Below are positions 671-61,975 of a stretch of DNA of 64,000 nucleotides, piece by piece. Within the stretch, counting starts at the first letter, position 1. The number at the start of each line of letters is the position of its first letter. Made by a program: the position numbers and the translations under genes. The notes beneath the pieces were generated by a model. The model was not told the DNA's origin. It ran no database searches and was given only the letters and a program-made list of their open reading frames with translations. This DNA comes from Adhaeribacter arboris. Its GTDB lineage: Bacteria > Bacteroidota > Bacteroidia > Cytophagales > Hymenobacteraceae. The DNA lies in NCBI RefSeq assembly GCF_003023845.1, contig NZ_PYFT01000001.1:5580001-5644000 (forward strand). Reading direction: 5' to 3'.

Positions 671-3600
671 ATGCTACACATTTACAAACCCATTTTTCTT
701 GTTAGTAATACGTTTTTAGATAAAAAGGTAAGCTTAGTAGTACTCCTAATACTATGTGCTATCTTACAGGTACAGGCGCAAACCCCAACTATTTTCAGTC
801 CTTATGGTTCACCTTGCGTTGGTGCTAATCAGGTATTTGCACTTCAGGGAGGCAGCGCTAGTTCCTGGGGCGTACAGAACGGCACTATTTTATCGCAAAG
901 TTCTACCAGTATTCAGGTTCGTTGGACTACAGTGGGGAGTGGTTATGTATATGCTTATTATAACAGCTCTACCTATCCGTATAATGGTACAGTATCTTCG
1001 CCTACTTACTCTATCTCTAGTAATGTAACACCATCCGTGAAAATAGCGGCAAATAAAACGATTATTTGCGGCAATGGGCAAGATGCCGTCACATTTACCG
1101 CTACTCCTACTAATGGAGGTACTAGCCCGACTTATCAGTGGTACAAGAATGGCACAGCCATCTCGGGAGCAACGGCCAAAACTTACGTTGCTACTTCCGC
1201 TAATTTTACTTCCAATGATGCTATTACCTGCGTACTTTATTCTAATTACCCCTGTGTCACAAGCTATAATTCTAGTCCCTCCAACGCATTAAAAGTGAGT
1301 GTTAGTATTGCTACCCCAATAAGTATCTCTATTAGAGCAAGTACACCGGTTTGTGCCGATGGTAAAGGAGCGTTTATTGCCGATGTTAGCGGCGGGACGA
1401 GTTATACTTATAAGTGGAGGGTAAATGGTATAAGCAGAACAAGCGATACGCCTAATGCGCCTTCCTATGTATTATCATCTACTTTTAATAGTAATGACAA
1501 AGTTACTTGTGAGATAACTGCTACTGGAAATTGTTTATCTAATAATCCGGCAACTTCTAATACTCTGCTTGTAACTAGAGCAGCAAGCGTAACCCCTTAC
1601 GTGAGTATTACGCCTACCAGTGGCGCTACGCCCTCGGCGGAAGGATATTATTATACTTGTTTGGGTAGTAGTATTACTTTTACCGCAACACCGGGTAGCA
1701 ATGGGGTGGGAGCAGCGGGTTACTCCTGGACAGTGGCCGGACAAGCGGCTGGTACGGGTGCTACTTGTACCGTGCCTAATTATATTGGTCAGAATGTATC
1801 CGTTACTATGAATGCCACTGGCTCCTGTTTAACTAGTAATACGGCCACCAATACGATCAGTATACTTATTAAACCAAATGTAGGTCCACTAACGGCTATA
1901 AGTGGACTTGCGAGCCGTTGCCAAGGAGCCGGAACCGATACTTACAACAGTTCGGCTGCTAATGCTACTCATTATAGTTGGAGTCTTACCCCAGCTACGG
2001 CAGGTACAATTAATAATTTAGGAGTTGTTACTTGGGCAACTGATTTTACTGGTTCTGCTACCATTACCGTAACAGCTTTTGGTTGTGGGCCTTCTCAATC
2101 AGCTACTAAAATGGTTACCGTAACGAAACCGCTGGCAAACGCTGGAGTGGCAAAAGTTATCTGCTCGGGAGGTACAACCAGCATAGGAGTAGCGCCCGCG
2201 GAGGGTTATACGTATAAGTGGAGTCCGGCCACTGGCTTGTCGAGCGCTAATGTAGCCAATCCAACCGTAAATTTAACGAATACAACGTCTGAACCGGTTA
2301 GTCATACATATACGCTTACTACTACCATTAATGGTTGCTCTGCCACGGATCAGGTAGTAGTAACAGTAAACCCGGCAGTAGTAGCAGATGCTGGAGCCGA
2401 TAAAGCAATTTGTATTGATAATTCTACTGTACTAACAGCTACCGGGGGAATAACTTATAACTGGTACCCTGCAGCTGGGTTATCAGATCCTAATATTGCG
2501 AATCCAATGGCTTCTCCAACAGAGACTACTGTTTACCGGGTAACCGTTACTAATGCGTATGGCTGTTCGGCCACGGATGAAATAGTTGTTACCGTAAACC
2601 CAAAACCAATAGCTTCAATAACCTATACCAACCCTGATAATATCTATCAGAGCGATAAAAAAGTTTTAACCGCTAGTACGGGTAAATCTTACCGCTGGAG
2701 TACGGGAGCCACGACTCCTAGCATTACGGTAACTGCGGCAGGAAATTATTCGGTAATAGTAACGAACGATGGGGGTTGCTCCAGCGAGGCCACTATTGCC
2801 CTGGAACCTAACAATTATAATTATGTAGTCAGCAATACAATCTTAACGGAAGGCATCACCAGCGAAGCCCAAGTAGAAAACCTTTCGATAGAGCAACGTT
2901 CCCAAAGTATTGTTTATTTCGACGGATTGGGCCGGGAATTACAAACGGTTGTTACCCAAGGAAGCCCCACGAAAAAGGATATAGTGCAACCAATTGCCTA
3001 CGACGCTTTTGGTCGTCAGACTACCACTTACTTGCCATATACAAGTGGTGATAATGGCTATTTTAAAACCGATGCCTTACTACCTGATTATTCTGCCAGT
3101 CAGCAGTACTTATTTTATCAAAATGCTGCCGCCAACGCGGATAAACACGCGGCGGATACTGCTCCTTACGCTCTAAACGTTTTGGAAGCTTCGCCTTTAA
3201 ATCGTGTAATAGAAAAAGGAGCTGCCGGGGCGGCTTGGCAACCCATGGCTGGTAGCGAAGCCGGCAAAACCGTTAAGATTACTGAGCGCACGAATACTGC
3301 TAATGAAGTAAGACTTTGGAGGTATGAGTATGCGACTGATCGCACTACAGCAGCAAGCTTTTACGAAGCGCGGCAATTGTATGTAACCGAGCAGCGCGAT
3401 GAGCACAATGCTCTTACGCTCGAATACAAGGATAAGGAAGGCCACATAGTCCTGAAAAAAGTGCAGGAAAGCGCTACTACTCCGCAGGATGATTCGGGTT
3501 ACTTGTTAACTTACTACGTGTACGACGATTTGGGTAATCTGCGCCTCGTAGTGCCACCACAAGGCGTTCGCTCGCTGCCGAGTGGTACGGCTACCTGGGC

Positions 3601-6600
3601 TCCGGAAAAAGAATTCATACATACCTGGTGCTTTCAGTACGATTACGATGCCCGCCAGCGGATGATTTTAAAGAAAGTGCCGGGAGCACAACCAATTCGA
3701 ATGGTTTATAACCGGCGCGATCAACTCATCTTAACCCAGGATGGCGAACAGAGTAAGACTAACCAGTGGAGCTTCACCAAATACGATGCCTTCAGCCGGC
3801 CGATTCTGTCGGGTATGCTCACGGATAATCGTACTCATGACCAAATGCAAGCAGCAGCGGCTGAGGACTTAACTCCGTTCGAAACCCAGAACAGCACTGC
3901 TTCGTCTGGTTACACACTTACTAATTCATTCCCGACGAACGTAACCGACGCCGACCTGCTCACCATTACTTATTACGACGGTTATAACTATCCTGCCTTA
4001 CAAAATACTACGTTCGCTTTTACCGCGCCAGGCAGTCCAGCCAATGGTTGGGCTTCGGATTACTTTGAACGAGTAAAGGAGCAAGTAACAGGTCAGCGGG
4101 TAAAAGTACTGGGTAGCTTTACCTGGCTCACTACCGCCAACTATTACGACGATAACTACCGCCTTATTCAAACAGTGGCCGATAACAGCGTAGGTGGCAT
4201 TGATCGCTTGGCGAGCCGTTACGATTTTACCGGTAAAGTATTGGAAACTCTGGCAACGCACACCAAAGGCAACCAAAGTCATATTGTAACTACCTCCTTT
4301 ACTTACGACCACGGGGGCCGGTTGCTGCAAACTACCCAGCAGATGGATGGCGCCAACCCGGTTGTGCTGGCAACTAATCAATACAACGAATTGGGCCAAC
4401 TCATCGACAAAAAGCTGCATCGGTCTGTTAGCGACAATAATTATTTACAAAGCGTGGACTACCGCTATACTATCCGGGGCTGGCTCACGCACATTAATAA
4501 TACCGCCTTGAGTAACGATAATGGTACTACGAACGACGATACGAACGATGTCTTCGGTTTTGAACTGACGTATAACCAGCCCACTTCCGACCCGAAGGCC
4601 AAAGCGCAGTTTAACGGCAATATTGCCGAGAGTTTCTGGAAAACCAGCACCGATAAGCAATTGCGCGGCTACCATTACGCCTACGACCCGGTGAACCGCT
4701 TAACCGGAGCCGCTTATTTGGCTCCCTCGGCCAGCACCGAAGATTACAGCGTTTCTAACATCAGTTACGATGCGAATGGCAATATCCGGACGATGAATCG
4801 CAAAGGATTACGCGCCGAAGTAGACGGCGTAAAAACTTTCGGCGACCTGGATAAGCTAAAATATAGTTATAGTGCGGCCAGTGGTAACCAACTATTAGGA
4901 GTAGACGACACAGAGACGACGGCTACGCCGCACGATTTTGAAGATTTAAACGCGCGTAAGTACCATGAAGCAGCTCCGGAATATGCCTATGATGCAAACG
5001 GTAACCTTATCAAGGACGATAACAAAGGCATTACGCATATTACTTACAATCATTTGAACTTGCCGCAGCGCATCTATTTTGGCTCTGATAAATATCTGGA
5101 TTTTAGCTACAATGCCGCCGGAATAAAGCTGCGTAAACGAGTAGTAGAAAGTGGTAAAGCCGATAAAGTAACTGATTACAGCGGCAGCTTCGTGTACCAA
5201 AATGATACCCTGCAGTTTGCGCATAGCAGCGAAGGCCGAGTTTTGTATAAACCGGCTACTAACACTTGGCAGTACGAGTACCACCTAAAAGATCACTTGG
5301 GTAATCTGCGGGTGTCGTTTGCCGAACCAACGGTAGAGCAACATTTAGCTACGATGGAGGTCGAACGGGCCGAGCAGGAAACGAAATTTAAAGATTTTGG
5401 TAACACTAAAGTGCCAGTAGCCACGGCTTTAGACCATACGCATACAACTACTTACTCCACGGGAGCCACGCCGGAAGTAGTGCGGCTCAACCGGGGTCGG
5501 AGTGTAGCCGACATCCGGCCTAGCTTGAGCTTGCGTGTGATGCCCGGCGACCACGTACAAGCGAAAGTCTACGCCAAATACCTAGATTTACGGCAAAGCC
5601 AACTCAACGCCAATGTGTTGCTAGCAGCACTGACCGGAGCCGCTGGTTACTCGATTACCAGCGACGGCGTGCTAACGACCGTAGTAGATAATGCCTCCGG
5701 TACGGCTGCTACCCTGCAAAACGGCGGCAGTTCCGACCAGCAGCCCCACGCTTATCTCAATTATTATCTCTTCGACGAGAACAACCACCGCATTACCTCC
5801 GGTTACGAGCAGGTAAATAGTACTGCGGCGATGTATGATGCCGCGAGTACCAACGGCAATCACCAGGAATTAGTGTTAAATATCCCTCCCATCGAAAAAG
5901 CTGGTTATTTACGCATTGAACTTAGCCATGATGTGGCCGAAAATATCGATATTTACTTCGATGATTTAACTATAACGCATCAGCACGGTTTGATTGTACA
6001 GGAAAACCATTATGATCCCTGGGGTCTGAACTTAACCGGTATTGAAAGTAAAGGTCAGCCCGATCATAAATTCCAGTACAATGGTAAAGAGAGGCAGGAG
6101 GAATTTGGATTAAACTGGAGTGATTATGGAGCTAGATTCTATGATCCACAGCTAGGCCAATGGCATAGTGTGGATCCGCTAGCCGATAAGATGCGGAGGC
6201 ATTCACCTTATAACTATGCGTTTGACAATCCGATTAGGTTTATTGATCTGGATGGAATGGCACCCCAAAACCCAGAAGGAGATGACCCCAACCTTAAGTA
6301 TGGCAAAAAGGCAAAAGCTTCGGATGTTGCTCCTTCATCAGAGAAAGTCTTAAAAGAAATAGCTAAAGATGCTGGTTTAGAAGAATTAACTATAACTAAT
6401 ACTGCACGCACACCCGCTCATCAAGCAAGAGTTATGTACGAAAATAAAGTGAAAGGTAAATCTTCATCATACGGAAGACCAGGAAAAGAAGTACTTAAAG
6501 TTTACGATAAAATGGCTGGAAAAAATTCCCCAAAAGAAATAAAAAGTGCAATGACAGATAAAATAAATGAATTAGGGCCAACAACAGTGTCGCATCATGC

Positions 6601-6853
6601 AAGTGATCCAAGTACCCTCACAGTTGTAGATGTTTCTATAGCAAGTGTAAAAAGTCAAGGAGGGTTTAATGCTCAAAGAAATTTTGTAAATACAGTTGAA
6701 AGTTATGTAGAAAAAGGAGCTGTGTCCAAATTTTTACATCCTGGCAACAATAAAGGTGAAGCTGCTTATCACATTGAAATCAAGGTGACTGCGGAGCCAC
6801 AAAGGGGTATTCCTATGCCTAAAATGGATTATTCTCAATTAATTACTTGGTAA
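671..6853 (+). CDS. Secreted RHS repeat protein with DUF6443 and a C-terminal M15-peptidase-like toxin domain
   Basis: A 2060-residue polymorphic-toxin-type protein. A Sec signal peptide ends near residue 36 (QVQAQ). Residues about 40-700 are Ig/PKD-like repeats rich in Thr, Ser and Asn with paired Cys. A DUF6443-like domain begins near residue 713. RHS/YD repeats follow up to the core motif YDPQLGQWHSVDP at about residue 1823, ending with DLDGMAP near 1860. The last 200 residues change character: Lys-rich, AT-rich codons, and a pattern TARTPAHQARVMY, then SHH (1974-1976), VVD (D1987) and AYHIE (H2034). This resembles the His/Asp/His zinc site of M15 D,D-carboxypeptidases. In RHS proteins the shell encloses a C-terminal toxin that is variable between strains. 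The peptidase assignment is inference; a neighbouring small secreted protein fits as immunity protein. Confidence 0.85.
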   Translation: MLHIYKPIFLVSNTFLDKKVSLVVLLILCAILQVQAQTPTIFSPYGSPCVGANQVFALQGGSASSWGVQNGTILSQSSTSIQVRWTTVGSGYVYAYYNSSTYPYNGTVSSPTYSISSNVTPSVKIAANKTIICGNGQDAVTFTATPTNGGTSPTYQWYKNGTAISGATAKTYVATSANFTSNDAITCVLYSNYPCVTSYNSSPSNALKVSVSIATPISISIRASTPVCADGKGAFIADVSGGTSYTYKWRVNGISRTSDTPNAPSYVLSSTFNSNDKVTCEITATGNCLSNNPATSNTLLVTRAASVTPYVSITPTSGATPSAEGYYYTCLGSSITFTATPGSNGVGAAGYSWTVAGQAAGTGATCTVPNYIGQNVSVTMNATGSCLTSNTATNTISILIKPNVGPLTAISGLASRCQGAGTDTYNSSAANATHYSWSLTPATAGTINNLGVVTWATDFTGSATITVTAFGCGPSQSATKMVTVTKPLANAGVAKVICSGGTTSIGVAPAEGYTYKWSPATGLSSANVANPTVNLTNTTSEPVSHTYTLTTTINGCSATDQVVVTVNPAVVADAGADKAICIDNSTVLTATGGITYNWYPAAGLSDPNIANPMASPTETTVYRVTVTNAYGCSATDEIVVTVNPKPIASITYTNPDNIYQSDKKVLTASTGKSYRWSTGATTPSITVTAAGNYSVIVTNDGGCSSEATIALEPNNYNYVVSNTILTEGITSEAQVENLSIEQRSQSIVYFDGLGRELQTVVTQGSPTKKDIVQPIAYDAFGRQTTTYLPYTSGDNGYFKTDALLPDYSASQQYLFYQNAAANADKHAADTAPYALNVLEASPLNRVIEKGAAGAAWQPMAGSEAGKTVKITERTNTANEVRLWRYEYATDRTTAASFYEARQLYVTEQRDEHNALTLEYKDKEGHIVLKKVQESATTPQDDSGYLLTYYVYDDLGNLRLVVPPQGVRSLPSGTATWAPEKEFIHTWCFQYDYDARQRMILKKVPGAQPIRMVYNRRDQLILTQDGEQSKTNQWSFTKYDAFSRPILSGMLTDNRTHDQMQAAAAEDLTPFETQNSTASSGYTLTNSFPTNVTDADLLTITYYDGYNYPALQNTTFAFTAPGSPANGWASDYFERVKEQVTGQRVKVLGSFTWLTTANYYDDNYRLIQTVADNSVGGIDRLASRYDFTGKVLETLATHTKGNQSHIVTTSFTYDHGGRLLQTTQQMDGANPVVLATNQYNELGQLIDKKLHRSVSDNNYLQSVDYRYTIRGWLTHINNTALSNDNGTTNDDTNDVFGFELTYNQPTSDPKAKAQFNGNIAESFWKTSTDKQLRGYHYAYDPVNRLTGAAYLAPSASTEDYSVSNISYDANGNIRTMNRKGLRAEVDGVKTFGDLDKLKYSYSAASGNQLLGVDDTETTATPHDFEDLNARKYHEAAPEYAYDANGNLIKDDNKGITHITYNHLNLPQRIYFGSDKYLDFSYNAAGIKLRKRVVESGKADKVTDYSGSFVYQNDTLQFAHSSEGRVLYKPATNTWQYEYHLKDHLGNLRVSFAEPTVEQHLATMEVERAEQETKFKDFGNTKVPVATALDHTHTTTYSTGATPEVVRLNRGRSVADIRPSLSLRVMPGDHVQAKVYAKYLDLRQSQLNANVLLAALTGAAGYSITSDGVLTTVVDNASGTAATLQNGGSSDQQPHAYLNYYLFDENNHRITSGYEQVNSTAAMYDAASTNGNHQELVLNIPPIEKAGYLRIELSHDVAENIDIYFDDLTITHQHGLIVQENHYDPWGLNLTGIESKGQPDHKFQYNGKERQEEFGLNWSDYGARFYDPQLGQWHSVDPLADKMRRHSPYNYAFDNPIRFIDLDGMAPQNPEGDDPNLKYGKKAKASDVAPSSEKVLKEIAKDAGLEELTITNTARTPAHQARVMYENKVKGKSSSYGRPGKEVLKVYDKMAGKNSPKEIKSAMTDKINELGPTTVSHHASDPSTLTVVDVSIASVKSQGGFNAQRNFVNTVESYVEKGAVSKFLHPGNNKGEAAYHIEIKVTAEPQRGIPMPKMDYSQLITW

Positions 6854-6901: not shown

Positions 6902-7456
6902 ATGAAAAATTTAAGTATTATATTTCTATTAACAATGAGTTTATTGCCTCTAAAGGTATTAACAAGTACAAATGCATTTAAAAAAAGCTCAGTATTTCAA
7001 TCAAATAGTATAACAAACCTTTCATATCTAAAGAATAAGCAAGAAATTATTTATTTCAATTATGATGAATTAAATAAAAGAGGAAATGGAATATTAAAGA
7101 ATCGCTATATTTTTCAAGTAAAGCCATGGAATAATGAAGATGAATATGGCATTACATTCGTAAGTTTAACAACTAATTCAAAAAAAGAGATACTAGGTAA
7201 TGAAGCTAAAGTAAGTGAATACAAAGCATATTTAGAGGCAGAAATTCGGATGCTTACTAAAATTTTATTGAAAGATAAAATAGCTATTCAAGTAATAGAA
7301 AGTTCTATAGCTTCTAAAAAAGGTAAGTTCAATTTAAAGAATGGTATTTATAGCCTTATTACTGATGGGGGTAACTATGACGAAATTTCAGTTCAAGTAA
7401 TGCACTTTGATTACTATTCAGATTTAATTACAATAAGTTGTCGAGCAGTTAATTAA
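6902..7456 (+). CDS. Small secreted protein, candidate immunity protein for the RHS toxin tip
   Basis: A 184-residue protein starting 48 bp after the RHS stop codon on the same strand. Residues 1-22 form a Sec signal peptide (MKNLSIIFLLTMSLLPLKVL), so the product should act outside the cytoplasm. The rest has no family I recognise; it is Lys/Glu/Ile-rich with predicted mixed alpha/beta character. Codon use is as AT-rich as the toxin tip just upstream and unlike the RHS shell, which suggests both arrived together. In polymorphic toxin loci the gene directly after the toxin normally encodes its immunity protein. A periplasmic location would suit protection against a peptidoglycan peptidase. The immunity role is inferred from position only. 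Confidence 0.6.
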   Translation: MKNLSIIFLLTMSLLPLKVLTSTNAFKKSSVFQSNSITNLSYLKNKQEIIYFNYDELNKRGNGILKNRYIFQVKPWNNEDEYGITFVSLTTNSKKEILGNEAKVSEYKAYLEAEIRMLTKILLKDKIAIQVIESSIASKKGKFNLKNGIYSLITDGGNYDEISVQVMHFDYYSDLITISCRAVN

Positions 7457-7686
7457 ATGGTTTGTTGAATTCTCATGTGTTAACTATTAAGTAGATTAGC
7501 TTAATGGAGTACATTTAATCAAAGTCGAATGTTAGAGTCTAGTCTGATGCTAATGTATATATAGTAAAATAGGTGATTATAATAGATTATGTTATTTGCG
7601 TAAGTTATATGGTTGAGTATATAAGTAAAAATAAATATATAATTTTTAATACTTTTAAATGAGGGTAAGATTTTGCTCCGACATAG

Positions 7687-8925
7687 ATGAACATGTTAAT
7701 TATTTCCAAATCAAAGAGCCTAATTACAAATTCTGTATTGTTGATTTTAACGTTAAAGTTATTTCTTTTTTTTCATTTAAATAGTTACGCTCAACAGCAA
7801 AATATAAATCAAAATACAAATTTATTTGAGCTGTCTATGCAAGATTTACTTTCAGAACAGGATAGCTCACAGGTGTCAAGCATATCAGATTCTTTACAAT
7901 TTAAAACAGTCATTGATAGCCTGAGACATTTAAACCAAGAATCTACTAAATTGGAACACAAAGTAGATAGCTTGCTGCAGGTAGTTACCGGTAGAGTAAA
8001 AGGATTAAGTAAAGATGAGATTTCGAATACCGAGCTGTCTAATTTAATTGAAAATGGAAAGCAAGTAATACCATCAGACGTACTACCAACCAAAGCAGAC
8101 CAAGTAATTACAAAATTAAACCAAATTACTATTTCCCAAAAATTACCCGACCAACTCCATTTAATTAAATCAAGCTTACCTAACATTCCTCTCGCGCAGA
8201 AAGTAGCAGGCGTAGAAGTAATAAAGAAGTTACCAGATGCGAAAGCAGCAGCGGAACTGGCAAAACAAGCCGCTTCGGATGCGGCCGAAACTTACTTCGG
8301 AAAGCAGTCAACGGCTCTTGACCAGGCGCGAAACGAATTAACTAAATATAAAGGCCGGCTGGAGAAGGTAGAAAGCTTAAAAGATTTACCTAAAGGAATG
8401 TTCCGGTTGAATCCGCTCCGCAATAAACCCTGGTACGAACGGGTAGTACTGGGCAGTCAGTGGCAGTTTAGTAAACAGGAACGATACCGCATTGATTTGG
8501 GGCCTTCGGTTGCCTGGCTGTTTACGGATAAGTTGTCGGCGGGAGCAGGCTTTCAGTACCGATTGAGCGTGAGTACGAAGCAGAAACCTTGGGTAAGCAG
8601 TTCCGATAAAGTGTTTGGTTATTTTGCCTTCAGCGATTTTCAGGTGACAAAAGGCTTTTTTGCCCGGTTCCATTACGATATTTTAAATACTTCCGTTCCT
8701 CGCCTGAACTCGTGGCAACAAGCTGAAATAGTAGAACAACGCTGGGTAAATGGTTTGTCGCTTGGCATAGGTAAGAGTTATACGTTTTATAAGAAAATAA
8801 ATGGTTATGCTTTGATGCAGTATAACCTGTTACACCAGGCTGGGGAGAGTCCTTACTTAAAACCCGTACAGGCAAAAATCGGCTTCTATATCAACGGGAA
8901 ATACTTAACTAAATCAAAGCCATAA
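7687..8925 (+). CDS. Envelope protein with coiled-coil region and C-terminal beta-barrel-like domain
   Basis: A 412-residue protein with an N-terminal signal peptide (cleavage near residue 36, NSYAQQQ). Residues about 40-240 are helical and rich in Gln, Lys, Leu and Ser with heptad-like spacing, probably coiled coil. Residues about 255-412 consist of alternating aromatic/polar strands separated by short turns (WQFSKQERYRIDLGPSVAWLF and onward), consistent with a small outer-membrane barrel. No named family is recognised. It is the last gene of the RHS locus, 230 bp after the candidate immunity gene. It could be an envelope anchor or an export partner for the RHS protein, but that is inference. 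An alternative ATG lies two codons downstream. Codon use moves from AT-rich at the N-terminus to the genome norm at the barrel. Confidence 0.6.
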   Translation: MNMLIISKSKSLITNSVLLILTLKLFLFFHLNSYAQQQNINQNTNLFELSMQDLLSEQDSSQVSSISDSLQFKTVIDSLRHLNQESTKLEHKVDSLLQVVTGRVKGLSKDEISNTELSNLIENGKQVIPSDVLPTKADQVITKLNQITISQKLPDQLHLIKSSLPNIPLAQKVAGVEVIKKLPDAKAAAELAKQAASDAAETYFGKQSTALDQARNELTKYKGRLEKVESLKDLPKGMFRLNPLRNKPWYERVVLGSQWQFSKQERYRIDLGPSVAWLFTDKLSAGAGFQYRLSVSTKQKPWVSSSDKVFGYFAFSDFQVTKGFFARFHYDILNTSVPRLNSWQQAEIVEQRWVNGLSLGIGKSYTFYKKINGYALMQYNLLHQAGESPYLKPVQAKIGFYINGKYLTKSKP

Positions 8926-9013
8926 TTTTTAAACCAACTTAATTTAAAAACAATAAAATAAGTTAGCCAGATAAAATTTAATTGTTTAGCTAAATAGAAG
9001 AGAGGCATTCAAT

Positions 9014-9021
9014 TACCTTTG
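9014..9021 (+). promoter_or_regulatory. Candidate -7 promoter element for the cobalamin adenosyltransferase gene
   Basis: TACCTTTG matches the Bacteroidota TAnnTTTG -7 element about 110 bp upstream of the ATG. No clear -33 TTG is seen at the expected distance. Confidence 0.35.
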
Positions 9022-9131
9022 CCGGTAGTAATTTACTAGAACGCCGCAAGCTTTTAGCAAAGTGAAAGGCAAGTAGTCTTAAATTATTTTCACTTTCTTA
9101 CATAACAATTAAATTTTGAGGCTTATTTACC

Positions 9132-9680
9132 ATGAAAATATACACCAAAACCGGCGACCAGGGTTTAACCAGTTTAATTGGCGGCACGCGGGTACGAAAA
9201 TCACATTTGCGTATTGAAGCTTATGGTACGGTGGATGAATTGAACTCTTATATAGGATTGGTACGCGACCAGCCGGTAAATGAATTCCGGAAAAACTTAT
9301 TGCAGGAAATCCAGGATCGGCTATTTACCATTGGGGCATTGTTGGCTTCTGACCCCGACAAAGTCAAAAAAAACATTCCGGACTTACACGAAGCAGATAT
9401 AATCCGATTAGAAGTTGAAATGGATGGGATAGATGCTATTTTACCGCCCTTAAAAGCCTTTATTTTACCTGGTGGGCACCCCGCGGTATCGTTTTGCCAC
9501 GTTGCTCGTTGCGTTTGCCGACGCGCCGAACGTTTAATCATTGCCTTGCAGGAAGAATCGTTTGTGGAACCTATTATAATTAAATACTTAAATCGCCTTT
9601 CTGATTACTTATTTATGCTGAGCCGCCAGATGGCGCACGAGCTAAAGGTAGAGGAACTATCCTGGCAACCGCGGTTGTAG
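9132..9680 (+). CDS. PduO-type ATP:cob(I)alamin adenosyltransferase
   Basis: A 182-residue protein that transfers the adenosyl group of ATP to cob(I)alamin, giving adenosylcobalamin for B12-dependent enzymes; cytoplasmic and normally trimeric. The N-terminal ATP-binding signature is present (KIYTKTGDQGLTSLIGG, residues 2-18), followed by RIEAYGTVDELNSYIGL (about 27-43). The C-terminal half has FILPGG, CRRAER and the YLNRLSDYLFMLSR helix typical of the family. Length is normal for PduO-type enzymes. The start ATG is followed directly by the family N-terminus. It is a single-gene unit between the RHS locus and ilvE; no cobalamin riboswitch is visible upstream. No other cobalamin gene lies in the window. 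Confidence 0.93.
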   Translation: MKIYTKTGDQGLTSLIGGTRVRKSHLRIEAYGTVDELNSYIGLVRDQPVNEFRKNLLQEIQDRLFTIGALLASDPDKVKKNIPDLHEADIIRLEVEMDGIDAILPPLKAFILPGGHPAVSFCHVARCVCRRAERLIIALQEESFVEPIIIKYLNRLSDYLFMLSRQMAHELKVEELSWQPRL

Positions 9681-9795
9681 TTTAAGAAACCGTAAAATGT
9701 AAACTCAAAAATAGGTTTCCTCATAACCGGACAACTTCATTCCTTCTTGCACCCAGGTAATTGCCGTAATCCCAGTATATTCTCTAAAAATTTGT

Positions 9796-9803
9796 TACTT
9801 TTG
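9796..9803 (+). promoter_or_regulatory. Candidate -7 promoter element for ilvE
   Basis: TACTTTTG fits TAnnTTTG and lies about 78 bp before the ilvE ATG. The upstream -33 element is not convincing. Confidence 0.45.
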
Positions 9804-9880
9804 CTTCGTGCATCCGTTATAAAAGAGTATATATTTTTTATAAGCGATTCTTTATAGTTAATTTTTTAATTTCTTTTCCT

Positions 9881-10945
9881 ATGCTCGACACGCAGACGAT
9901 CCAGATACAAAAAACTACCGAATCTCGGTTATCGGCCGTAGATTTTGCAAATCTTGATTTTGGTGCAGTTTTTTCTGACCACATGCTGGTTATTGATTAT
10001 GCCAATGGTGAGTGGCAAACGCCTACTATTGTTCCCTTTGCTGATTTTAAATTAAGTCCGGCTAATCCGGCTTTGCACTACGGACAAGCCATTTTTGAAG
10101 GCTTAAAAGCTTATAAAAATGAGCAAAGCGAAATATCCGTTTTTCGTCCGGTAGCTAACTTAGACCGGCTAAACATTTCGGCAGAGCGTTTATGCATGCC
10201 TACTTTACCGGAAGAACTGTTTATGCAAGGTTTAACCGAATTGCTGCGCCTCGATGCCGATTGGATTCCTTCGGCTCCGGGTAGTGCCTTGTATATCCGG
10301 CCATTTATGTTCGGAACCGGCGAGTTTTTAGGAGTAAGACCCGCAACGGAATACCGCTTTGCCATTATTACCTGTCCGGTAAATGCTTATTATTCGGCGC
10401 CTTTACGGGTTAAGGTAGAAGAAACGTATGTGCGGGCAGTAGAAGGAGGTTTTGGTTTTGCGAAAGCTGCTGGTAATTACGCCGGATCTTTGTTACCGGC
10501 TAAAAAAGCTTTTGAAGCCGGTTACCATCAATTACTCTGGACAGACGGTAAAACCCACGAATATTTTGAAGAATCGGGTACCATGAACTTGATGTTCGTA
10601 ATTAACGATACTTTACTAACGCCGGCTTTAAGTACTTCCATTTTGGCAGGTATTACCCGCGACAGTATCCTGCAATTAGCCAAAGATCAAGGCATAACGG
10701 TAGAAGAGCGCAAAGTTTCGGTAGGGGAAGTAATGGAAGCCATTCAGCAAGGTACTTTGCAAGAAGCATTTGGCTGCGGTACGGCCGCTGTTATTTCGCA
10801 CATTGTTACCATTGGTTATCAGGGTCAGGATTACGAATTACCACCCGTTAATACCCGGAAATATTCTCCGCAATTAGCTCAAGTCTTAGATGATATCCGC
10901 ACGGGCAAAGCTCCGGATACCCACAATTGGATGGTTCAGATTTAA
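9881..10945 (+). CDS. ilvE: Branched-chain amino acid aminotransferase
   Basis: A 354-residue PLP enzyme of fold type IV that transfers amino groups between glutamate and the 2-oxo acids of leucine, isoleucine and valine, the last step of their synthesis and first step of breakdown. Family signatures seen include HYGQAIFEGLKAY, FRPVANLDRLNISAERL, YIRPFMFGTGEFLGV, the PLP lysine K195 in GFGFAKAAGNYAGSL, and the EESGTMNLMFV and GCGTAAVISH phosphate-binding segments. Length is typical of the larger (class II) bacterial BCAT group. It stands alone, without other ilv/leu genes beside it. The ATG chosen follows an AT-rich leader with a possible promoter at 9796. Confidence 0.95.
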   Translation: MLDTQTIQIQKTTESRLSAVDFANLDFGAVFSDHMLVIDYANGEWQTPTIVPFADFKLSPANPALHYGQAIFEGLKAYKNEQSEISVFRPVANLDRLNISAERLCMPTLPEELFMQGLTELLRLDADWIPSAPGSALYIRPFMFGTGEFLGVRPATEYRFAIITCPVNAYYSAPLRVKVEETYVRAVEGGFGFAKAAGNYAGSLLPAKKAFEAGYHQLLWTDGKTHEYFEESGTMNLMFVINDTLLTPALSTSILAGITRDSILQLAKDQGITVEERKVSVGEVMEAIQQGTLQEAFGCGTAAVISHIVTIGYQGQDYELPPVNTRKYSPQLAQVLDDIRTGKAPDTHNWMVQI

Positions 10946-11111: not shown

Positions 11112-12189
11112 ATGACGGTAGAACAAATTAAAGATTTAAAGGCCCGGGTAGAGGCTTTGAGGAGGTATCTTTGACTACGATGCGAAAAAAACGCAGGTAA
11201 CCGAAACGGAACAACAAACCACTGCTTCCGGCTTTTGGGATGATTCTAAAAAAGCCGAAGCAATTTTAAAAGAAATAAAATCAATTAAAATCTGGACTGA
11301 TCAGTTTGAGGAAGTAGCTACCCGGTTAGCTGATCTGGAAGTATTATTTGACTTTTATAAAGAAGGGGACGTTTCGGAGGAAGACATTACCCGGGAATAC
11401 GCGGATACCTTGGCCTTATTAGAACAGTTGGAATTTAAGCGCATGCTCAGCAACGAAGAAGATCAACTGAGCGCCATTTTAGAAATTAATCCGGGAGCCG
11501 GCGGTACCGAGAGCCAGGATTGGGCCGAAATGCTGATGCGGATGTATATTATGTGGGCGGAAAGTCATCGGTACCAGGTTAGACAGTTAAATTACCAGGC
11601 CGGCGACGGAGCTGGTATTAAGTCGGCTACGCTTGAAATTAACGGCGACTTTGCGTATGGCTATTTAAAATCAGAAATTGGGGTTCACCGTTTAGTGCGC
11701 ATTTCTCCCTTTGATTCCGGAGGACGCCGCCACACCTCTTTTGCTTCGGTATTTGCTTATCCTTTAGTGGACGACTCCATTCATATTGATATCAATCTGG
11801 CCGATATTGAATGGGATACGTTTCGGTCGGGGGGGGCCGGTGGGCAAAATGTAAATAAAGTAGAAACTGCCGTACGCTTAAAGCACAAACCTTCGGGTAT
11901 TATCATTGAATGCCAGATAGAGCGGTCGCAGCTGATGAATAAAGAACATGCCATCAACATGTTACGCTCCCGCTTGTACCAAATAGAAGTAGACAAACGC
12001 AACGAAGAGCGCGATAAACTGGAAAGTACCAAAAAACGCATTGATTTTGGTTCCCAAATCCGGAATTACGTTTTACACCCGTACAAATTAATTAAAGATT
12101 TACGTACCGGCATAGAACGGACCGACGTACAAACCGTTTTAGACGGAGATTTAGACGAATATATTAAAGCTTTTTTAATGCAGAGTTAA
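11112..12189 (+). CDS. prfB: Peptide chain release factor 2, with programmed +1 frameshift
   Basis: RF2 recognises UGA/UAA stop codons and triggers peptide release. The gene is split: codons 1-20 run from ATG 11112 to CTT 11169-11171, followed by an in-frame TGA (11172-11174). Skipping one T continues as GAC at 11173 and gives a 358-residue protein of normal RF2 length. The slippery context is the classic one: an AGGAGG Shine-Dalgarno-like hexamer (11160-11165), TAT, CTT, TGA C. Downstream, the stop-codon-reading tripeptide SPF is at residues 198-200 and the catalytic GGQ at 243-245. In this family RF2 shortage favours frameshifting, so the site autoregulates synthesis. Annotators that ignore the shift would call only the segment from about 11410. 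It is likely transcribed alone; a terminator follows at 12275. Confidence 0.96.
11160..11175 (+). promoter_or_regulatory. prfB: prfB programmed +1 frameshift site
   Basis: AGGAGG, 3-nt spacer TAT, slippery CTT and stop TGA followed by C form the conserved RF2 autoregulatory frameshift signal. The SD-like hexamer is notable because translation starts in this window mostly lack one. Confidence 0.95.
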
Positions 12190-57962: not shown

Positions 57963-58796
57963 ATGACCAAAGAGCAGTTATTCGACCAAATTAAAAAAAA
58001 GCACTCGTATTTATGCGTTGGTTTAGATACCGACTTACAAAAAATACCCGTCCATTTACGCGATCTAGAAGACCCCATTTTTGAGTTCAACCGCCAGATT
58101 ATTGATGCTACGGCGGATTTGTGCGTAGCTTATAAACCGAATATTGCCTTTTATGAAGCTCTTGGGCCGAAAGGTTGGATAAGCCTCGAAAAAACCTTAA
58201 ACTACATTCCGAAGGATATTTTTACCATTGCCGATGCCAAACGCGGCGATATTGGCAATACTTCCGAACTCTATGCCCGGGCTTTTTTTGAAAATTTAAA
58301 TTTTGATTCGATCACCGTTGCTCCGTACATGGGCGAAGATTCGGTAAAGCCATTTCTCTTGAAAGCTGATAAATGGGTGATTTTACTAGCGTTAACCTCT
58401 AACCCCGGGAGCGCCGATTTTCAGCTTTTGCAAACCGATGATGGTACCGACGATTATTCCCGTTGTTTGTTCGAGAATGTACTAAGTACGAGTAAATCCT
58501 GGGCCACCGATGAACAATTAATGTACGTAGTAGGCGCTACCCGGCCGGATTTTATTCAGCGCGTACGCGAAATAGTACCCAATCACTTTTTGTTAGTTCC
58601 GGGAGTGGGCGCCCAAGGCGGCAATTTGGCGGATATTTCGCGTTTGGGGATGAACCAGCAATGCGGCCTGCTCGTGAACTCGTCGCGTACTATTATTTAC
58701 GCTTCCAACGGCACCGACTTTGCCGAACAAGCCCGTGCCGCTGCTTTGTTGATCCAGCAGGAAATGGCAGGTTATTTAAGTCGGTACTTGGGGTAA
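57963..58796 (+). CDS. pyrF: Orotidine-5'-phosphate decarboxylase
   Basis: A 277-residue enzyme that converts OMP to UMP, the last step of pyrimidine synthesis. It is of the longer bacterial type 2 family: [27 protein letters not shown], the catalytic [15 protein letters not shown] (D91, K93), [26 protein letters not shown] and [11 protein letters not shown]. All active-site residues are in place and the length is normal for the type. It stands alone, 172 bp before the AAA-DUF4435 gene. The ATG is preceded by no clear Shine-Dalgarno sequence. Confidence 0.96.
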
Positions 58797-58968
58797 GATT
58801 GTGAAGTAAATATGGCTGTTGACTGTAGTGTCCTTTCGAAGAATTTTTAAGTATGAAGAAATAATATCTATAACTTTAAAAAAGTTTGCCTAATTGTAAC
58901 GTATTTGGCCTCTCTTGAAAAAATAAGTTAAGTGATATAATATCTGTGTAATACTATTTTATAAATAG

Positions 58969-60588
58969 ATGAAAGTAAGCAAGATTGAATTAGTAAACTT
59001 TAAAAGGTTTACTGACTTAACTATTTCAGACATACCTGAGACAGCGAAACTCGTTTTATTAATAGGCTCAAATGGCTCTGGCAAATCCTCGTTGTTTGAT
59101 GCTTTTGATTGGTTAAACGTCCCGTATAAAGCTAGGACCTATAGCGATGATGAAGCATCTGATTACTATCAAAAGAAAAAAAACGAAGAACCAAAAGTAG
59201 TGGTAAAATTTACCAGTGGCGATTTAATTGAAAAAACTGGTTATAATATCATCAAAGGAACGGAGCTGGTTAAGAAATTTATAGGAAGAAGCAGTATTCG
59301 CATAGTGCCTAGAAATTCTAACGATGCCAATCCCTCTGCTGTATCCACGGATATGGATAGCCCTATCACTTATATTGAAAATGACACCCGTTTTATTAAT
59401 GATGTATTCCTTTATATCCAAAAGATAAATCAAGCTTTAAGAGAGCCTGTATTTAGTGGTAAACAAGCAGATACTTTAAAAATTTTTAGGGACTTTATTG
59501 AGCCATTAAATAGTTCACTTCTTAAAATATTCGGGGGTGACGAAACTACAACTATTCAAATTGCAGAGTTTCAAGACGCAACTCCTCGCACTCCAGCCAA
59601 GTTGATTTTTAAAAAAGGTGAATCAAAAATCAATTATGACTTATTAAGCCACGGTGAGAAACAAGTAATTATCTTACTTATAAACTTTATAGCAAGAAAA
59701 GAATATTATAGCAACTCCATAATTTTTATCGATGAAATGGATAATCATTTAAATACTGCTTTACAAGCAAGTTTATTAGAGGAGATTGTTACTAAGTGGA
59801 TTTCGGATGACTCTCAACTTTGGACTGCTTCGCATGCTTTAGGTTTTATAGACTACGCCAGAAATAGTGATATTGCTTCAATTATTGATTTAAATTTAAT
59901 AAATTTTGACACCAAACAAGAACTAATACCTTTATCTAAGAATAAACTAGAGGTTTATGAAATAGCAATTCCCAAAGCAACTATTGCTTCCATTCTTAAA
60001 GGATATAAGCTAGTTATAGTTGAGAATAAAAATGATGAATATTTCAATTCTGCTTTAGGCCAAGATGGTTTTCTATTCTTACCGGCAAATAACAACCGAG
60101 AGGTTTTTTTGACAGTCAAAAGCGACAAAGATAAGTTAGGATTAAGAGATAGAGATTATTTAAAATCGGAAGAAATTGAAAAAATCAGAGGTCAACTGCC
60201 AAATTTAAAAATATTACTTCTTTCTACATTTGAGAATTACATCTATCATCCAGATAACTTTGGAGAATTAAGATATGCTAAATTTGATAAAGAAGAATAT
60301 ATCGCTGAAATCTTAAGGCAAAAGAATGAGAAGCTTATTGATGTAGTAAGTGAAATTGGCACATCACGAACTCATTATATTGAATTTAAGGATTGCATAA
60401 AAGATGATGGTAATATTAAGCCAATTACGGAAGCATTAAAGAGTAATATATTCGATGACTTTTATCCGTTTTTTAACATGAAAAAGCATTTCAATAAAAA
60501 ATACCTTACAAGATTTAATTATACAATCAGTGATTTGGCCAAAACACAGTGGTTTAGAGGTGAAATTTTACGAGTGCTTAATAGCTAG
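58969..60588 (+). CDS. AAA ATPase fused to a DUF4435/TOPRIM-like domain, PARIS-like defence candidate
   Basis: A 539-residue protein in one frame. N-terminal half: SMC/ABC-like AAA_15 domain with Walker A GSNGSGKSS (33-41), signature-like SHGEKQ (227-232), Walker B IIFIDEMD (D255, E256) and a switch His in SHALG (H289). C-terminal half: LVIVENKNDEYF (E352, D356) and GLRDRDYL (D394, D396), then TFENYIYHP; this acidic E...DxD layout matches the DUF4435/TOPRIM nuclease fold. In the PARIS system AriA is such an ATPase and AriB the DUF4435 nuclease; fused forms are known. The gene is more AT-rich than its neighbours and sits alone between pyrF and the DUF2851 gene, as an inserted accessory gene would. 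Defence function is inferred; an OLD-like role is the alternative. Confidence 0.72.
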   Translation: MKVSKIELVNFKRFTDLTISDIPETAKLVLLIGSNGSGKSSLFDAFDWLNVPYKARTYSDDEASDYYQKKKNEEPKVVVKFTSGDLIEKTGYNIIKGTELVKKFIGRSSIRIVPRNSNDANPSAVSTDMDSPITYIENDTRFINDVFLYIQKINQALREPVFSGKQADTLKIFRDFIEPLNSSLLKIFGGDETTTIQIAEFQDATPRTPAKLIFKKGESKINYDLLSHGEKQVIILLINFIARKEYYSNSIIFIDEMDNHLNTALQASLLEEIVTKWISDDSQLWTASHALGFIDYARNSDIASIIDLNLINFDTKQELIPLSKNKLEVYEIAIPKATIASILKGYKLVIVENKNDEYFNSALGQDGFLFLPANNNREVFLTVKSDKDKLGLRDRDYLKSEEIEKIRGQLPNLKILLLSTFENYIYHPDNFGELRYAKFDKEEYIAEILRQKNEKLIDVVSEIGTSRTHYIEFKDCIKDDGNIKPITEALKSNIFDDFYPFFNMKKHFNKKYLTRFNYTISDLAKTQWFRGEILRVLNS

Positions 60589-60667
60589 AGTATTCTTAAA
60601 TAGCAATTAGTTTAGCCTATTTATGTTTTTATGCTTATTCTTGTAAATACCCTCCGCTTACCGTACC

Positions 60668-61975
60668 ATGACCTCCGCTGTGCCCTTTAAAGAAGATTTT
60701 CTGCATTATGTGTGGCAGCAGCAGTATTTCGATAAAGCCGATTTAGTTACCTCGCACAATGAAGCAGTGCATGTACTAAAACCAGGGTTTTATAATACCA
60801 ATGCCGGTCCGGATTTTTATAATGCTCGACTGCGAATAGGAACCGAAGAATGGAACGGCAGCGTGGAGATTCATGTCTACGCCTCGGATTGGGAAAAACA
60901 CTCCCACCAAACCGACCCGAAGTACAACCAGGTAATCTTGCACGTAGTTTGGGAAAACGATAAACCCGCGAGGCGCGCCGATGGTACAGAAATACCCACG
61001 ATAGCTCTACACGGGCGAATTCCTTTACACCTGGTAAATACCTATCAGCAATTTTTAGAAAATCGCGAGGAAATTCCGTGTAGTCCTTTTGCCCCCCAGG
61101 TACCTGGCTTGATTAAAACCAGCATGCAGGAACGGGTTCGGATGGAACGCTTGCAGACGAAAGCCGACCGGGTACTAACTATTTTAACTACCACTCAAAA
61201 CAATTGGGAAGAAACTTGTTATGCCTGGCTATTAAGTAGTTTCGGGTTTAAAATAAACCAGACGGGCATGCTGCGTCTGGCCCAGGTTTTACCTTACGCC
61301 ATTTTGCGCCGCCACCGGCATCAGTTAATCGCGCTCGAAGCGTTATTGTTTGGCCAAGCTGGTTTTTTGCTGCCCGATGCACCGGATGATTATTGGCGTA
61401 CCTTATTTCAGGAATTTACTTATTTACAACACAAATATGCGTTACCCACTGGCTTAAAACGGGCCGACTGGAATTTTTTGCGGCTCCGGCCGGCTAATTT
61501 CCCTACGGTAAGATTGGCGCAATTGGCGGCTTTGCTGCACCAACAAGAACATTTATTTTCCAATTTGCTTTCGGCTAACTCTATGGCTGCTTGGCAAACC
61601 TACTTTCAGGTAGAACCAGCAACCTACTGGCAAACGCATGTATTACCGGGCCAAGAAACCAGAAAGGCACCTAAAGGTTTGGGGAAAAGCAGCATTTACT
61701 TATTACTAATAAATGCGGTAGCTCCCTTACTAGTGGCGTATGGCAAATATAAAAACGACGAAAGTTACGTAGAGAAAGCCATTGCCTTACTGGAACAATT
61801 ACCCCCGGAAGATAATCGTATTACCCGTTTGTACACCGGTTTGGATTTTTACCACCAAACCGCTGCTGATTCGCAGGCATTGCTGCAGCTAAACCAAAAT
61901 TATTGTGTGCCACGTAACTGCCTGCAATGCAGCATTGGTAGTTTTATTTTAAAGAAAAATCACTTTGCCCGATGA
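60668..61975 (+). CDS. DUF2851 family protein
   Basis: A 435-residue soluble protein of a family almost limited to Bacteroidota. The N-terminus FKEDFLHYVWQQQYFDK, NAGPDFYNARLRIGTEEWNGSVEIHV and SDWEKHSHQTDPKYNQVILHVVWEND are diagnostic. The acidic/His residues in GSVEIHVYASDW-HSH suggest a nuclease-like active site, but the function is unproven. The C-terminus has three Cys (CVPRNCLQC) that might bind a metal. The stop overlaps the start of the following membrane protein gene by four bases (ATGA), showing coupling. Confidence 0.88.
   Translation: MTSAVPFKEDFLHYVWQQQYFDKADLVTSHNEAVHVLKPGFYNTNAGPDFYNARLRIGTEEWNGSVEIHVYASDWEKHSHQTDPKYNQVILHVVWENDKPARRADGTEIPTIALHGRIPLHLVNTYQQFLENREEIPCSPFAPQVPGLIKTSMQERVRMERLQTKADRVLTILTTTQNNWEETCYAWLLSSFGFKINQTGMLRLAQVLPYAILRRHRHQLIALEALLFGQAGFLLPDAPDDYWRTLFQEFTYLQHKYALPTGLKRADWNFLRLRPANFPTVRLAQLAALLHQQEHLFSNLLSANSMAAWQTYFQVEPATYWQTHVLPGQETRKAPKGLGKSSIYLLLINAVAPLLVAYGKYKNDESYVEKAIALLEQLPPEDNRITRLYTGLDFYHQTAADSQALLQLNQNYCVPRNCLQCSIGSFILKKNHFAR

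Follow-up and report, generated by a model that had tools for sequence, protein, structure and literature searches.

The gene considered here lies in a 64,000-nucleotide stretch of the Adhaeribacter arboris genome (contig NZ_PYFT01000001.1, positions 5,580,001 to 5,644,000), which is referred to below as the window. An ATG-started open reading frame at 58969–60588 on the forward strand encodes a protein of 539 aa in a single frame, as described in the initial annotation; translation, Pfam searches, alignment and hhalign comparisons identify it as a putative one-chain ABC ATPase–DUF4435/Toprim-like protein. Upstream lies pyrF, encoding orotidine 5'-phosphate decarboxylase (57963–58796, forward strand; PF00215, 1e-24), and downstream a DUF2851-family gene (60668–61975, forward strand; PF11013, 3e-143). 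The gene had been described as lying alone between housekeeping genes; both neighbours are indeed on the same strand, the DUF2851 gene being of unknown function. The AT-richness noticed earlier is also evident, with GC 0.316 and GC3 0.26 in the gene against GC 0.456 and 0.457 and GC3 0.49 and 0.46 in pyrF and the DUF2851 gene, respectively. Comparison of empty and filled sites delimits, with approximate edges, an inserted segment from the pyrF stop to the DUF2851 start (58797–60667, no strand assigned), consisting of a 172-nt AT-rich leader, the gene, and a 79-nt tail. Terminal repeats were searched for at the insertion, and no direct match of at least 8 bases was found, the inverted matches being of 8 bases only. 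A scan for sigma-70 promoters, which does not cover other promoter types, was uninformative (10 found versus 8.6 expected).

Two other parts of the window deserve mention. A 2060-aa protein with DUF6443, which we take to be RHS-like, is encoded at 671–6853 and followed by a 184-aa ORF (6902–7456) that gave no Pfam match at E ≤ 0.01 and adjoins an AT-rich stretch (GC 0.27 in 7001–8000); the arrangement resembles an RHS-type protein gene followed by an orphan. The ORF at 11410–12189 resembles a release factor (RF-1, and PCRF starting at profile position 80), but read in this frame from its first listed start it lacks the N-terminal part, and we presume that this may be a programmed frameshift of prfB.

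The N-terminal half of the 539-aa protein (residues 1–320, boundary approximate; 58969–59928, forward strand) matches the Pfam families AAA_21 (1.4e-12, 48.7 bits), SMC_N (1.8e-12), AAA_15 (38.5 bits), and AAA_23, and is therefore assigned to ABC ATPases of the SMC/Rad50/OLD type; the earlier name "AAA ATPase" is misleading if taken in the AAA+ sense. Catalytic motifs were compared by aligning the window protein and five relatives of 23–62% identity. The Walker A motif GSNGSGKS (59065–59088, forward strand), previously placed at residues 33–41, is present but ends at residue 40, with G33, N35, G36, G38, K39, and S40 invariant and S34 and S37 variable. The ABC signature SHGEKQ (residues 227–232; 59647–59664, forward strand) retains S227, G229, E230, and K231 in all sequences, varying at H228 and Q232. 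In Walker B, SIIFIDE (residues 250–256; 59716–59736, forward strand), both D255 and E256 are invariant, as is H289 (59833–59835, forward strand), which we take to be the switch histidine (H-loop). Identity in all six aligned sequences extends to E352, D394, D396, E422, and Y424 of the C-terminal half, and on this measure the motifs are evidently not due to chance. Apart from the Walker A end, the motif positions given in the initial annotation (227–232, D255/E256, H289, E352, and D394-x-D396) agree with translation and alignment. Among the best 25 of 97 PADLOC models matched by the protein, mad3 (61.9 bits) and AriAB (59.5 bits) stand on top. When the PDB was searched with the family profile, the best match was 9n69, titled retron IA complex in the Foldseek table, and AriA was matched with E 0.0014.

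The C-terminal half (residues 321–539; 59929–60585, forward strand) was identified by hhalign against DUF4435 sets and by aligned catalytic positions. E352 (60022–60024, forward strand), the Toprim glutamate, corresponds in the alignment to the glutamate of the AriB VEG motif and is followed on the same strand by the Toprim DxD, D394-R395-D396 (60148–60156), and by a further conserved acidic position in E422-N423-Y424 (ENY; 60232–60240). The Pfam DUF4435 model (PF14491) gave no match in the window protein at E ≤ 1 or in the whole genome at E ≤ 10; in one protein of a sister group (L013) the match is weak (17.3 bits, cut-off 27), and no match was found in four other full-length family members scanned at E ≤ 0.5. 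By its sequence, this half is too divergent for the Pfam model, and since Pfam misses the window protein, profile–profile comparison was performed. The set of close C-terminal sequences comprised nine members: the window protein, its homologue in a congener (G735), five ATPase-linked relatives, and two proteins with another N-terminal half. The initial hhalign runs against three AriB sequences only were not significant (E 0.086 and 0.15), and the broader sets were collected after this result. Nine DUF4435 loci were gathered, one of which (L091) was left out because it is cut by a contig end; of 14 OLD loci, 12 were used in hhalign and 10 in the phylogenetic tree. The fused AriAB set had three members, two called by PF14491 and one (L054) placed by eye.

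Against the DUF4435 part of the three fused AriAB proteins, the close set gave E 6.8e-8, over 134 columns covering part of the C-terminal half. The value was 3.2e-9 when four AriB sequences were joined to the fused ones, and 1.6e-8 when five stand-alone DUF4435 proteins were also included. Matches to AriB alone (E 0.0017) and to the stand-alone DUF4435 proteins alone (E 0.0021) were weak. The 12 OLD Toprims gave E 0.2 and a pyrF control 0.15. With 13 sister-group sequences added to the close set, the values became 2e-13 for fused AriAB, 1.7e-4 for the OLD Toprim, and 0.24 for the pyrF control. In a joint alignment, the Toprim E, the DxD, and the next E were aligned in 34 of 34 sequences, and the LPANN segment of the window protein aligned with LPAGN of AriB; as it was built from candidate homologues, this alignment backs homology without testing it independently. 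The C-terminal half is thus judged, at the level of sequence, to be homologous to the DUF4435 domains of fused AriA–AriB, so that the DUF4435 fusion first proposed for this gene holds by profile–profile comparison (E 6.8e-8 against 0.15 for the control) but not by the Pfam model. A PDB sequence search with the close-set C-terminal profile gave no match, and searches with the AriB, sister-group, and L010 C-terminal profiles returned unrelated rows only, with no nuclease. The best PADLOC model for three sister-group proteins (L010, L013, and L014) is AriAB, at 96–113 bits.

Structure prediction was informative mainly for a relative. The AlphaFold model of the window protein itself (7 rows) has pLDDT 48 and is not usable as evidence; in Foldseek it matched mainly ATPases of the SMC/Rad50 and PtuA kinds. 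The model of the sister-group protein L010, which is 25% identical to the window protein (10 rows), reaches pLDDT 79.6, with values of 74 to 97 for the blocks of ten residues that begin at residue 341. It predicts a strand leading into E347, then a helix and a strand, and a strand leading into D410xD412, which would be the Toprim order, as judged from the general layout of Toprim folds rather than by computation. The Foldseek list for this model is headed by GajA (8u7i, 9.4e-11; 8x5i), OLD of Thermus scotoductus (6p74, 3.4e-10), PtuA, and retron Eco8. TM-scores are low (0.22–0.57), as can be expected if the two predicted domains are placed differently. AriA and AriB were absent among the best 50 Foldseek rows for both models. 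The Toprim-like C-terminal fold is therefore supported by profiles and by the model of a relative, but not by the window protein's own model.

A tree of 37 ATPase halves places the window protein in a close clade of eight rows, one being a phage fragment (L009), with support of 100/99. This clade and two sister groups (four and nine rows) form a larger clade (99/98), outside which fall AriA (three rows, 100/100), OLD (10 rows, 45/49), and the fused AriAB proteins, whose three rows do not cluster together in the best tree. The deep order of the tree is unclear, several outer rows are long-branched, and SMC, Rad50, and RecF rows were left out; for these reasons, what is claimed is that the window ATPase forms a separate clade among the 37 rows, as the sequence tree supports, and not which relative is nearest. 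The suspicion that the gene might represent a new clade, apart from AriA, fused AriAB, and OLD, was thus well founded, and no clustering with non-defence ATPases was seen in this tree without SMC, Rad50, and RecF rows. Parts of one study list further uncharacterised OLD clades, U1–U11 (PMC12796447), and the window clade could be among them. In the literature consulted, mostly in partial texts, no description of the window clade was recognised.

The closest anatomical parallel is PARIS. In that system, phage anti-restriction proteins lead to abortive infection, AriA forms a hexamer, and tRNA is cleaved. According to passages of PMC9122126, the fused form is AriA–AriB in one chain, with AAA_15 or AAA_21 plus DUF4435; cut-offs are 32 bits for AAA_15 or 27 for AAA_21 and 27 bits for DUF4435 (PF14491), and a single-protein fusion profile is applied at 80 bits for the AAA_15 type and 20 bits for the AAA_21 type. 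The window protein exceeds both ATPase cut-offs (AAA_21 48.7, AAA_15 38.5 bits), has no DUF4435 match at 27 bits (searched to E ≤ 1), and has a C-terminal domain whose homology to DUF4435/AriB is found by hhalign (0.0017 for AriB alone). The PADLOC AriAB models, which may not be the profiles of PMC9122126, gave 59.5 bits for PDLC02981 and 22.4 bits, in the ATPase part only, for PDLC02982, a model that also has matches in all 14 control genomes (E ≤ 10). By its predicted anatomy, the protein would work like a fused PARIS; membership in PARIS is not claimed, because DUF4435 is missed at 27 bits, the fusion-profile scores do not decide the matter, and PARIS-type function is a prediction. It shares with fused PARIS the order of ABC ATPase and DUF4435/Toprim in one gene, the catalytic positions, and a similar size (539-aa and 638-aa open frames at L092 and L097), and differs in a DUF4435 domain too divergent for Pfam, an ATPase in a separate clade, and an hhalign match limited to those 134 columns. 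With two-gene PARIS it has in common the two domain types, E...DxD...EN, and the LPANN/LPAGN alignment; it differs in being one chain, with no AriB-type release, and in its weak match to AriB alone. The resemblance to fused AriA–AriB proposed in the initial annotation is thereby upheld for the two-domain layout, by the profile match, the ATPase motifs, and the catalytic positions. The predicted product combines an intact ABC ATPase half, with Walker A, signature, Walker B, and switch histidine, and on the same chain a divergent DUF4435/Toprim nuclease-type half with an apparently intact E...DxD...E. On these grounds we consider it probable that the gene encodes a one-polypeptide PARIS-like abortive-infection protein; its defensive role, trigger, and substrate are assigned by inference.

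The same ATPase–Toprim layout is found in class 1 OLD enzymes, which cut DNA, and a defence nuclease of that kind, acting on DNA rather than tRNA, is a rather unlikely alternative. Like OLD class 1 and Gabija GajA, the window protein is a one-chain ABC ATPase plus Toprim, and the match at the fold level comes from its relative L010, whose Foldseek hits to GajA and OLD span the whole length. The OLD Toprim value of 1.7e-4 obtained with the combined set points the same way, and parts of PMC12796447 describe OLD class 1 genes as stand-alone in variable neighbourhoods, as here. Against this, the close set is far nearer DUF4435 (3e-9) than OLD Toprim (0.2), the ATPase clade falls outside the 10 OLD rows (although the OLD split is weak, 45/49), and the OLD-like Toprim family PF20469 has no match in the window protein (E ≤ 1) or in its genome (G000; E ≤ 1e-8). 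The GajB helicase partner of Gabija is also absent, the immediate neighbours being pyrF and DUF2851. A tested one-gene ABC ATPase–TOPRIM protein, IbfA of 518 aa, which PADLOC assigns to HEC-04, shares architecture and size with the window protein, but belongs, according to parts of PMC12111858, to a four-gene transcription unit, whereas the window gene is solitary. IbfA/HEC-04 was considered as the nearest tested relative and rejected, as pairwise BLASTP similarity was limited to Walker A (E 0.001). Septu and retron I-A PtuA share the ATPase half, but the window gene has no HNH partner next door and a Toprim-type half instead. Toprim-linked OLD ABC conflict systems in general have been described before (PMC12839542, in part).

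The distribution of the family is sparse. Matches were found in five of 395 genomes of a phylum sample (E ≤ 1e-20), namely that of the window itself, two with close full-length relatives, one with a sister-group protein (matched over residues 1–354), and one with a C-terminal match. An overlapping class sample gave six of 395 (E ≤ 1e-15): the own genome and three with close relatives, besides one with a sister-group protein and one matched in the C-terminal part. In the family sample, five of 150 genomes matched (E ≤ 1e-15), three of these with sister-group proteins, and in the genus two of eight, including the window's own (E ≤ 1e-15; one of the six without a match is 78% complete). Only one of 72,556 plasmids matched, with a sister-group protein (29%), and none of 50,697 phage records did; pattern scans of viral collections gave no full-length close-clade member among the matches listed. 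Peptide patterns in the GTDB collection retrieved one relative, at 61%, in a Rickettsiales MAG; provided that this contig is correctly binned, the distribution of the gene family appears to extend across phyla.

Within the genus, filled sites in the window and G735 have a homologous leader and tail, and in five genomes (G730, G731, G732, G733, and G734) the site is empty, with only 35–70 nt between the parts matched by pyrF and by the DUF2851 gene; the 78% complete G736 gave no pyrF match. Among four genomes, pyrF and DUF2851 Ks pair the window with G732 and G735 with G733. Between the window and G735, Ks is 0.48 for the inserted gene, 1.50 for pyrF, and 2.70 for DUF2851, and although Ks across genes of unlike GC is a rough yardstick, its larger values being near saturation, this difference indicates that the gene was most likely transferred between the lineages after their split. 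Ka/Ks for the same pair is 0.086 over the gene, 0.097 over its ATPase half, and 0.071 over its C-terminal half; both halves are evidently under purifying selection. The window and G735 share MTSA(V/A)PFKEDF, whereas the residues upstream of FKEDF are different in G732 and G733, so that the right edge of the insertion appears to fall among the first codons of the DUF2851 gene. Presence or absence at one site together with lateral transfer is usual for defence genes.

The neighbourhoods add a note of caution. At six independent close-clade sites, all genes are on one strand with short gaps, and the flanking pairs are pyrF/DUF2851 (window), ilvB/ilvN (L001), SLFN_AlbA_2/SNF2 (L004), MauE/permease (L005), mfd/AMP-binding enzyme (L020), and DegT/UDP-glucose dehydrogenase (L022). 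In the Rickettsiales MAG (L001:2228–3847), the gene is flanked by those for the two subunits of acetolactate synthase, lying after the large-subunit gene and one base ahead of the small-subunit gene. Same-strand placement at six of six sites has a chance of 0.12, given that 26 of 37 window genes are so placed, and this pattern alone is not unusual; for the tight-gap count (6 of 37 genes), thresholds were picked after the data were seen. A defence-type family is absent from the immediate neighbours at five of the six sites, which weakens the defence reading a little. This tight, same-strand placement without such neighbours would also suit a host-function ATPase–nuclease for chromosome or cell-cycle upkeep, as Cran1 in Sulfolobales, and one OLD-family member is apparently non-defence according to parts of PMC12796447. 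We nevertheless regard such a function as highly unlikely, as it would be expected to be kept and vertically inherited, whereas the gene is laterally transferred and unmatched in six of eight genus genomes (one 78% complete) and 145 of 150 family genomes (E ≤ 1e-15). Scarcely plausible is a selfish or toxin-like gene persisting by addiction with no protective role: the solitary, laterally moving insertion with no partner gene beside it would fit, but the insert holds no antitoxin-like partner, and purifying selection on both halves speaks for a kept enzymatic function, while not telling which one.

Context in favour of defence comes from the C-terminal domain found elsewhere. In two proteins, a 922-aa frame in G348 and a 925-aa frame in G685, an unrelated N-terminal part precedes the close C-terminal domain, which is 33–38% identical to that of the window clade over about 200 residues. 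These fusions (920–922 aa) and the GmrSD gene beside one of them are located at L112:5855–8617 and 8671–10380 and L113:7495–10263. By eye, the N-terminal part is possibly PIN-like (F[VA]DTN); a weak PIN_5 Pfam match in the G348 fragment (0.0098) is under the cut-off, and the N-terminal part of the G685 protein has no PIN Pfam match. No paper with both DUF4435 and PIN as whole words was found in the literature consulted. A GmrSD gene adjoins the fusion in G685 (PF03235 5e-36, PF07510 8e-23), and this neighbour, together with SLFN_AlbA_2 and SNF2 at the L004 site, suggests a defence context.

A truncated relative occurs on a 95-kb viral contig, L009, which carries phage DNA polymerase, ligase, and methyltransferase families (in three of five proteins scanned). 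Its product (L009:5992–6954, 320 residues) is 54% identical to the ATPase half, lacks the Toprim half, and reads IDDMDCN where the window protein has IDEMDNH, changing the Walker B E to D, and SYGEKQ for SHGEKQ. The next long ORF is on the opposite strand, ending 50 bases on, and a scan with the fragment found only L009 itself. By its sequence, this ATPase-only gene may be a product of decay or a decoy; as a decoy, its altered ATPase half could poison the host's assembled sensor. That the DUF4435 half is the portable effector of a sensor-swapping family, countered by a phage-borne dominant-negative protein such as that of L009, is a doubtful proposal, raised here as speculation.

For the PARIS-like abortive-infection protein favoured here, a mechanism can be outlined by analogy with AriB and with OLD/Gabija. 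The ATPase halves would assemble and keep the Toprim half inactive, until the assembly is altered by some sign of infection, which may be a phage product such as the anti-restriction DNA mimics that act in PARIS. The Toprim halves would thereupon dimerize and cleave RNA by a two-metal mechanism, the substrate most likely being tRNA if the target of AriB can be carried over, and translation, and with it phage growth, would stop. AriB is a two-metal tRNase according to parts of PMC12409363, and in PARIS this effector is released on activation (PMC12409363, in part; PMC11455837). Since effector and sensor form one chain in the window protein, and AriB-type release would need chain cleavage, activation is expected to occur in cis, inside the assembled particle. 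No report of function for any close-clade member was found in the literature looked through.

A one-chain relative of this kind would show whether the PARIS sensor–effector pair fires without release, linking PARIS to OLD/Gabija. As the clade is missed by Pfam DUF4435, on which the PARIS rule is partly based, such solitary genes may be undercounted. The congeners with filled and empty sites offer a natural comparison for phage sensitivity.
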